From the NCBI GenBank assembly GCA_029667085.1, contig JARUHJ010000001.1, positions 930,001 through 994,000 of the forward strand: a DNA stretch of 64,000 bases, in the 5' to 3' direction. Below are positions 15,805-17,114 of the stretch, piece by piece. A program made the translations under genes and the position numbers. The number at the start of each line of letters is the position of its first letter. Position 1 is the stretch's first letter. Origin of the DNA: Deltaproteobacteria bacterium IMCC39524. GTDB lineage: Bacteria > Desulfobacterota > Desulfuromonadia > Desulfuromonadales > BM103. The notes beneath the pieces are model-generated. The model was not told the origin of the DNA. It searched no databases and was given only the letters and a program-made list of their open reading frames with translations.

Positions 15805-15825
15805 AGCCGTTGTCATTAACCAGAA

Positions 15826-15864
15826 AAAAAAACACGGAGCGTAGCTATCTACTCCGTGTTTTTT
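15826..15864 (+). terminator. Intrinsic terminator of thrC
   Basis: Stem AAAAACACGGAG pairing with CTCCGTGTTTTTT around a 12-nt loop, ending in a T-run. It lies 20-60 nt after the thrC stop. Confidence 0.88.
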
Positions 15865-15920
15865 CTTTTCAGGGTATCTACTTCGCTCCACCAGTAACAA
15901 TAGGGTCATAAACTTTTTTG

Positions 15921-16030
15921 AACAGGGATATACAGGATGTACAGGATAAAACCATAAGAACCAAATATTAGTGATTTATCCAAGCCCCGAAGATTTTGAC
16001 TTTATCCTGCTTATCCTGCCTATCCCTGTT
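15921..16030. repeat. Inverted 30-mer pair built on CAGGAT units, in the 389-bp gap 15805-16193
   Basis: The left arm at 15921-15950 (AACAGGGATA, then two CAGGAT units ending in AAA) and the right arm at 16001-16030 match as inverse complements at 25 of 30 positions, with 50 bp between. Each arm is itself a degenerate tandem of ACAGGAT. The rest of the gap, up to the DUF3179 gene, holds nothing else recognisable. Confidence 0.65.
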
Positions 16031-16193
16031 ATTAATATTTCTTTTGACCTTAAAGCCTCTTGATTTGTAAAGATAAAATGGTTTTCTGCTAACCTCGATA
16101 AGTTAGTTGAGTGAAGAGGATAACCACATTTTCTTTTTGGGTCGTTTGACTCAAAGAGAGCCCTCCTGAGACAATGATTGTAAGGAGGTAAAC

Positions 16194-17114
16194 ATGAGAC
16201 AACTCCTTACCCTGCTCATTTTTTCTATCTTCGCATCAGTCTGCCCACCAACAGCCTATTCTGATTGGGACTACTCCAAGCATAGCATAGAGATAAGTGA
16301 GATTCAGTCCGGAGGCCCTCCCCGCGATGGCATACCGGCGCTCTTCGAGCCCAAAACCCTGCCAGCCAAATGGGTTGATTTTCTCGATGATGATGACCGG
16401 GTCCTCGGAGTCGTTCACAATGGCATCGCCCGCGCTTACCCTATCCGGATCCTCTCCTGGCATGAACTGGTCAATGATGACTTCGGTGGAGCCCCCCTAC
16501 TGGTCAGTTGGTGACCACTCGCATTTGCGGGAGCCGTGTTCTCCCGGGAGATAAACGACAAAACCTATCGATTCGGCGTCTCCGGTCAACTCTATAAATC
16601 CAACGTCCTGATGTATGATCAGCAAACTGAATCGCTTTGGTCCCAAGTCCTTCAGCGTGCAGTGACCGGCCCCATGACCGACACAAAACTTTCTCAACTA
16701 CCTTCGACTCTGACAACCTGGAGCAAGTGGCGCAAGAAATATCCGGAGACAGATGTTCTAACACCAGCAACCGGTCACGTCCGCGACTACTCAAAAGACC
16801 CCTATGCAGATTATTACGAAAGCCGTAGTGGCATGTTTGGATTTCTTAAAGGTGGGCCAGGTGCGGAAGAAAAAGAGTTGGTGATTGGCATAGAGATTGG
16901 CAATACCGCCAAGGCATACAAACTTCAGGACCTCCGTTCCGTAAACCGGATCAAAGATAAAGTTGGTGCAACTGAGATTACGTTAAGATTCGATGATGAA
17001 ACCGACACGCTGACCGTGAAAGACCTATCTGGCAACACTCTCGACCATCTGCTGCTTTATTGGTTCGTATGGAAAGAGATTCATCCTGAAGCGGAGGTGT
17101 ATAGGAGTAAATAA
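16194..17114 (+). CDS. DUF3179 protein, probable selenoprotein (in-frame TGA at 16512)
   Basis: A secreted protein of 306 residues if the single in-frame TGA (codon 107, 16512-16514) is read through. The halves 16194-16514 and 16536-17114 are in the same frame, and no stop or shift separates them apart from that TGA. The N terminus is a Sec signal peptide ending near AYSD. DUF3179 proteins carry a VSWCPLCG-like motif; here the sequence reads LLVSW-TGA-PLAFAGAVF, so TGA stands exactly at the first cysteine, and Ala110 replaces the second. After it come the family segments FGVSGQLYKSNVLMYD and ESLWSQ. A stem-loop starts 13 nt after the TGA. A strong TAAGGAGG site precedes the ATG. The family function is unknown. 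The alternative is a fresh nonsense mutation, which I think less likely given the conserved remainder. Confidence 0.75.
16528..16546 (+). promoter_or_regulatory. SECIS-like stem-loop after the in-frame TGA
   Basis: CGGGAG (16528-16533) pairs with CTCCCG (16541-16546) around the 7-nt loop CCGTGTT. The loop begins 19 nt after the TGA, within the spacing used by bacterial SECIS elements read by SelB. The loop contains GU, but no G in its first two positions, so it fits the common bacterial model only in part. Confidence 0.45.

Follow-up and report, generated by a model that had tools for sequence, protein, structure and literature searches.

DUF3179 Selenoproteins

The domain of unknown function DUF3179 (PF11376) is already known as a selenoprotein family. 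The available portions of two reviews (PMC9312934, PMC13188914) list it with the motif UxxC/T, and for the family the former refers to work by Zhang and Gladyshev (2007) on the Olavius algarvensis symbiont. The records MBW1804167.1 and MDJ0986319.1 are those that the reviews cite. A further open-access paper, in the portion available, gives one DUF3179 gene in a table and nothing more. In the passages returned by a search of open-access full text for DUF3179 and PF11376/pfam11376, we found no mention of UxxA/S forms of DUF3179, of a hairpin in the family or of its function, and neither a clade with a lone selenocysteine (Sec) nor its contrast with the Cys forms was found in print there.

The gene described here is a member of this family with a variant motif. 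It lies in a 64,000-nucleotide stretch of Deltaproteobacteria bacterium IMCC39524 (contig JARUHJ010000001.1, positions 930,001 to 994,000), the whole of which we call the window. Like the printed DUF3179 selenoproteins, the window copy belongs to PF11376 and has a predicted Sec replacing a conserved Cys. The printed forms are UxxC or UxxT, whereas the window copy and its clade are UxxA/S and have no partner thiol; as the window copy reads SWUPLA, and not the printed UxxC/UxxT, we call it a variant. Elsewhere in the phylum, other lineages have UxxT and UxxC forms. Cys-form DUF3179 proteins from bacteria and archaea are 33–45% identical to the window protein and have the same H90, N94, S130 and W149. 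They differ from it in their Cys codon, in mostly having a second Cys at +3, in lacking a hairpin signal and in often being encoded near Dsb or thioredoxin genes. Compared with the bacterial SECIS element as set out in the available part of PMC13188914, the hairpin predicted in the window copy matches in spacing, stem, loop size and energy and differs in that its G is third in the loop.

We read the window gene as encoding an exported DUF3179 selenoprotein, in which a hairpin would aid UGA decoding and which would act as a lone-selenol oxidoreductase using an external thiol; we put the probability of this reading at roughly three in four. Thiol peroxidases of the 1-Cys/1-Sec type and similar enzymes have no resolving Cys, and an external thiol resolves their oxidised centre. 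The window protein would resemble them in its proposed chemistry.

A Reading Frame Interrupted by a Single TGA

The predicted DUF3179 selenoprotein gene occupies positions 16194–17114 of the forward strand and, translated with TGA as U, encodes 306 residues with Sec107. Its frame runs from the ATG at 16194 to the TAA at 17112–17114, and the TGA at 16512–16514 (residue 107), which we read as Sec at the position of the conserved Cys in the motif SWUPLA, is the sole interruption. A mechanical ORF list cuts the gene into two ORFs (16194–16514 and 16536–17114). An earlier reading made from the sequence only had proposed a single frame broken only by this TGA, intact and family-like down to 17114, that gene callers would split. 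Translation confirmed the frame, the ORF list shows the split, and the read-through product gave one PF11376 match (residues 44–274, E-value of 5e-80) that spans the TGA. With a profile score of 269.5 bits against a curated cut-off of 27, the product belongs to DUF3179, and the genome gave no further DUF3179 match. An NCBIfam search returned no meaningful family, the one match (E-value of 0.1) lying far below its cut-off.

A Shine-Dalgarno-like AGGAGG, read from the sequence at 16183–16188 of the same strand, precedes the ATG by 5 nt. Positions 16194–16262 probably encode a signal peptide for Sec-type export (about residues 1–23, cut near AYS/D), a call made by eye from the hydrophobic N-terminus and from similar N-termini in relatives. 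Compared with the copy from the same genus, dN/dS was 0.053 before the TGA and 0.093 after it, figures that are rough because synonymous differences are near saturation. At about 0.09, the stretch after the TGA looks to be under purifying selection. Homologous coding sequence lies on both sides of the in-frame UGA, as in bacterial selenoproteins. Because other species and genera also have TGA at this codon and selection downstream appears to be purifying, the TGA is beyond chance. That the seemingly broken gene is a whole gene, with Sec probably inserted at 16512–16514, is well supported by these comparisons.

TGA and Cys Codons in Relatives and the Sec-Decoding Machinery

We determined how the codon varies among related genomes. 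At family level, DUF3179 occurred in 2 of 22 genomes, both of which have a TGA copy. The second of them (G012) is a relative from the same genus, and its TGA copy has no other stop within the matched region. G012 further carries a pair of distant DUF3179 paralogues (L024 and L025) that are nearly identical to each other, lack the TGA and have the motif YCVLS (CxxS). At class level, 27 of 277 genomes contained DUF3179, and 22 of these had TGA at the homologous codon, including one (G083) whose copy (L048) is decayed by two TAG. In three genomes every copy had Cys (CxxT in G085 and G086, CxxC in G072), and two had fragments only (G040 and G115). In the phylum sample, 45 of 395 genomes had a DUF3179 match, and TGA and Cys copies both occur. 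Among the named loci, which are the best 80 of 573 and overlap with the class genomes, so that their count is neither a census nor independent, the codon was TGA in 25 and Cys in 55, with no third residue. Cys homologues at the UGA position are a further feature expected of a bacterial selenoprotein. Sec forms recur in selenium-using bacteria of the phylum, though a plain ORF listing splits the window gene.

Decayed or fragmented DUF3179 copies also occur in genomes that still have selA (L050 and L052 in G115, L049 in G040 and L048 in G083). In G115, the matches flanking the UGA region abut and the UGA region itself is missing.

On its contig 2, the genome of IMCC39524 (99.99% complete) has adjoining selA, selB and selD genes within 4.5 kb (620.6, 405.5 and 361.8 bits, respectively), and its selD itself has a TGA, in SGUAAK. 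It also contains a tRNA-Sec (75.3 bits; anticodon UCA by ARAGORN), so the set known from bacteria that make selenoproteins, SelA, SelB, SelD and tRNA-Sec, is all present. A weaker second tRNA-Sec candidate was found to be tRNA-Trp. Across the genomes tested, selA was present in 44 of 47. It was not found in the other three, which are 59%, 99% and 63% complete. The last of these (G060) has a TGA copy of DUF3179, which counts against the Sec reading.

These results bear on most of what the sequence-only reading had said of the codon. It interpreted the TGA as Sec, which the machinery, the TGA or Cys codons of relatives and the hairpin of the UGA copies support, and it mentioned Sec-containing DUF3179 proteins as recognised in some annotation, as the available portions of both reviews (PMC9312934, PMC13188914) indeed list them. 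The alignment of homologues and the search for Sec genes that it proposed came out in its favour, with only TGA (25) or Cys (55) at the codon in the best 80 of 573 loci and with selA, selB, selD and tRNA-Sec in the genome, and, as to the disabling mutations in related strains that it named as a counter-sign, the matched region of the same-genus TGA copy has no other stop. Its family motif, VSW-C-PLCG, was right in placing Cys at the TGA position of homologues and off in one detail: among the best 80 of 573 loci, most Cys homologues read (V/I)(T/S)Y-C-PLC, while the window copy reads VSW-U-PLAFAG and has no second Cys. The loss of the partner Cys was absent from that reading.

A SECIS-Like Hairpin Downstream of the UGA

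RNAalifold applied to 22 UGA-downstream stretches returned one hairpin, at columns 17–35 counted from the U of UGA, with seven pairs, three of which vary in both partners, and a 5-nt loop. The hairpin starts 13 nt downstream of the UGA and is common to the UGA copies. In the 22 sequences, 96.1% of cells were paired; sliding the partner by 1–3 columns lowered this to at most 67.5%. Across 39 distinct UGA segments, 6.51 of the seven pairs form, compared with 4.68 ± 0.14 under synonymous recoding (about 13 SD above the null, whose maximum in 1000 trials was 5.23). The 56 Cys segments, on the other hand, had 3.00 pairs against 3.03 in their own synonymous null, and hence no hairpin signal. The synonymous-codon null rules out the hairpin as a by-product of the protein sequence. 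A G-U in the loop is invariant in 39 of 39 UGA segments, a dinucleotide that is also fixed by a Val codon.

The two sets cover 95 of 136 DUF3179 loci. The other 41 are repeat copies of counted segments, fragments, or loci that the pattern missed or mismatched, with several CPIT/CPTT and CxxC copies, the CxxS copies L024 and L025 and the UGA copy L157 among the last. Four of 60 Cys rows were false matches and were dropped, which left the 56, and the 39 UGA segments take in the decayed copy L048 and the frameshifted L077. In L047, a UxxC form, the hairpin is altered but fully paired.

The SECIS-like hairpin of the window copy lies at 16528–16546 of the forward strand (stem CGGGAG/CTCCCG, loop CCGTGTT) and is predicted from RNAalifold, the pair counts and the synonymous-codon null. 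The top pair of this copy is mismatched (C/U), which leaves a 6-bp stem and a 7-nt loop, CCGUGUU. The bacterial SECIS model, as given in the Figure 2 legend of PMC13188914, has a loop of 3–9 nt, a stem of 4–16 bp, a UGA-to-loop distance of 16–37 nt, an energy of at most −7.5 kcal/mol and a G required as the first or second base of the loop. With its 7-nt loop, 6 bp, 19 nt from UGA to loop and −8.0 kcal/mol for the hairpin alone, the window copy falls within this geometry and departs from the G rule, its G being third. A crude version of the whole model was passed by 31 of 39 UGA segments (eight fail) and is not specific, since 20 of 56 Cys segments pass it too. Folded alone, the window stretch had no advantage over shuffled sequences (z = −0.35; 67 of 200 did equally well). 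The best fold of its 48 nt is a different structure, though the centroid is the hairpin. Rfam had no match at gathering threshold within the window. The case for a functional hairpin here is thus a comparative one, drawn from relatives and not from the window copy by itself.

Loss of the Partner Cysteine

The usual motif of the Cys forms is [Y/F]-C-P-L-C, with some CxxT and two CxxS copies. The UGA forms read W-U-P-L-A/S, as in the window copy with A, F-U-P-L-T or W-U-P-L-C. Among the best 80 of 573 loci, 54 have CxxC, 19 UxxA, six UxxS and one CxxT. By comparison with homologues, the second-Cys position of the CxxC forms corresponds in the window gene to the Ala codon GCA at 16521–16523 (forward strand), and the only Cys of the window protein is residue 17, inside the signal peptide.

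We counted Cys residues in a region that opens 84 residues ahead of the Sec/Cys and extends as far as the match does, so that C-terminal ends may be missing from it. Within it, all 22 UxxA rows have no Cys besides the Sec; in two cases a single genome contributed a pair of these rows, and L154, which duplicates L060, was excluded. The same holds for five of five UxxT rows and eight of nine UxxS rows, the ninth having a second TGA. Exactly two Cys are present in 54 of 59 CxxC rows and a single one in five of seven CxxT rows. The UxxS copy L146 (genome G530) has two in-frame TGA, the second 71 residues on, at a position where no other row is listed with Cys.

In a tree of 105 rows, UxxA and UxxS group together (32 rows, support 100/96), and a UxxT clade of five rows (100/99) is joined to them weakly (87/61). 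It follows from this tree that a large clade, and not just this genome, combines Sec with loss of the partner. The two UxxC rows (L144 and L047) fall elsewhere on long branches, with unsure placement; a separate gain of Sec is possible for them. Partner loss is not confined to Sec, as it is also seen in CxxT (seven rows) and in the CxxS copies L024 and L025, and the two UxxC forms are Sec forms that keep the partner.

Tentatively, and at a little below even odds, we suggest that the gain of Sec went with giving up the resolving residue, so that a two-Cys exported enzyme fed by DsbD/TlpA would have become the Cys-free, single-selenol enzyme of the UxxA/S clade. If so, one family shows how Sec makes a resolving Cys dispensable, and DUF3179 gains a first functional setting. 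With lone-Sec, UxxT, UxxC, CxxT and CxxC forms in one family, what is gained from Sec when the partner is lost becomes testable.

Genomic Neighbourhoods

Thioredoxin-fold genes were found near 16 of 55 Cys loci, DsbA-like genes near seven and DsbD/CcdA-like genes near eight, compared with one, none and one (DsbD-like) of 25 Sec loci; this contrast is not a clean test, since the groups differ in taxonomy and contig size, nor are the counts an independent survey, since the profiles were built from some of the same genes. The Cys loci with redox neighbours come from Patescibacteria, DPANN archaea, Nitrososphaerota, Verrucomicrobiota and Gammaproteobacteria, among others. The DUF3179 gene could be located in 49 of the 55 Cys loci, which gave 114 operon-like neighbours. 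Redoxin (10) and AhpC-TSA (9) were the commonest families among them, followed by DsbD_TM (5) and DSBA (4). As a control, 114 of the 253 other ORFs of the same loci gave AhpC-TSA 2, DsbD_TM 2 and DsbD_2 2, even though they take in some true downstream redox genes (L097, L105 and L126).

The window gene is flanked by thrC and a GtrA gene, and this, together with the scarcity of redox genes near Sec forms, counts against our redox reading. No widely shared neighbour was found across the Sec loci in a set of 69 proteins, hand-picked from 130 plus two window genes; the commonest were HhH-GPD repair genes (five of 69, all in a single group of genera). Elsewhere in the genome there are four DsbD_TM matches, and most control genomes have such matches too.

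In four lineages, the Sec gene or what remains of it has a cytochrome P460-like gene next to it (L057, 3600–4097; L071, 1492–2076; L168, 7040–7543; L050, 2–577), and CxxCH is visible in all three of the sequences inspected. In the Patescibacteria-type loci L113, L126 and L131, genes for DUF3179 and for DsbA-like, TlpA-like and DsbD-like proteins run in one direction; L126 and L131 also have an ArsR-type regulator gene upstream.

Proposed Function

The residues conserved around the Sec/Cys include H90, N94, P108, L109, S130, G131 and W149, in an alignment of the window protein with 69 of the 80 named loci (best 80 of 573; left out were L072, L077, L081, L107, L112, L117, L123, L127, L131, L132 and L133). 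A sequence search of solved structures gave chance-level matches only (E-values of 0.7 and 0.44).

The frame, the machinery, the conservation, the hairpin and the missing Cys are supported by the results above. For Sec insertion, export, a redox role and a thiol partner, we infer the following course. SelB with Sec-tRNA would decode the UGA at 16512–16514, aided by the hairpin 13 nt downstream, and the selenol would stand in for the first Cys of the CxxC pair of the family. As the second position is Ala or Ser in the clade, Sec would be the only redox residue of the window protein past the signal peptide. The protein would work outside the cytoplasm as a lone-selenol oxidoreductase, its oxidised Se being a selenenic acid or mixed selenenylsulfide that an outside thiol may reduce. 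The reductant would probably be a thioredoxin-fold partner fed via a DsbD/CcdA-type membrane protein; we propose this external-thiol route because of the redox gene neighbours of the Cys forms. If true, this would link a domain of unknown function to extracytoplasmic thiol redox chemistry.

Other explanations of the TGA fare poorly. Decayed copies do exist in the class, as L048 with its two TAG and the fragments in G040 and G115 show, and the TGA might likewise be a fresh nonsense mutation or a sequencing error with nothing made after it. The presence of this TGA in the same-genus copy and in others throughout the class, the (roughly estimated) purifying selection after it and the selection on synonymous sites for a hairpin in UGA copies, with none in Cys copies, make this exceedingly improbable. 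We give just as little credence to two separate proteins, a 106-residue fragment and a product from the GTG at 16536, which the mechanical list presents as separate ORFs: the split falls inside one domain, the second half would have no signal peptide and the Cys relatives are a single chain. UGA readthrough of another kind, by near-cognate suppression or a changed code, would insert Trp or a mixture instead of Sec. It would account for a frame that continues past the UGA and is nonetheless very unlikely in a genome with complete Sec machinery, with Cys and not Trp as the alternative residue (best 80 of 573 loci) and with a covarying hairpin at SECIS distance.

A different question is what an inserted Sec would do. 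It may bind a metal or metalloid, or be non-catalytic in some other way, and ArsR-type regulator genes beside some Cys forms are in keeping with this, as are the loss of the second Cys, which removes the usual dithiol chemistry, and the lack of redox neighbours at most Sec loci. Against it stand the DsbD, DsbA and thioredoxin-fold neighbours of the Cys forms, the 54 of 59 CxxC rows whose sole Cys pair is the CxxC and the statement, in the available part of PMC9312934, that most known selenoproteins are thiol-based oxidoreductases. We consider such a role unlikely, if still a serious candidate, and prefer a lone-selenol oxidoreductase as the probable function of the window protein.

Upstream Repeats and Hairpins

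Upstream of the gene, an imperfect inverted repeat at 15921–16030 has 37-nt arms that are 78% complementary. Its arm TTATCCTGCNTATCCNTGTT occurs in ten places in the genome, that in the window included, while a reversed control had no match; it is a dispersed intergenic repeat. A strong hairpin at 15824–15883, after thrC, is flanked by A and T runs and has a sub-threshold NsiR1 match in Rfam. It is probably a terminator on both strands.
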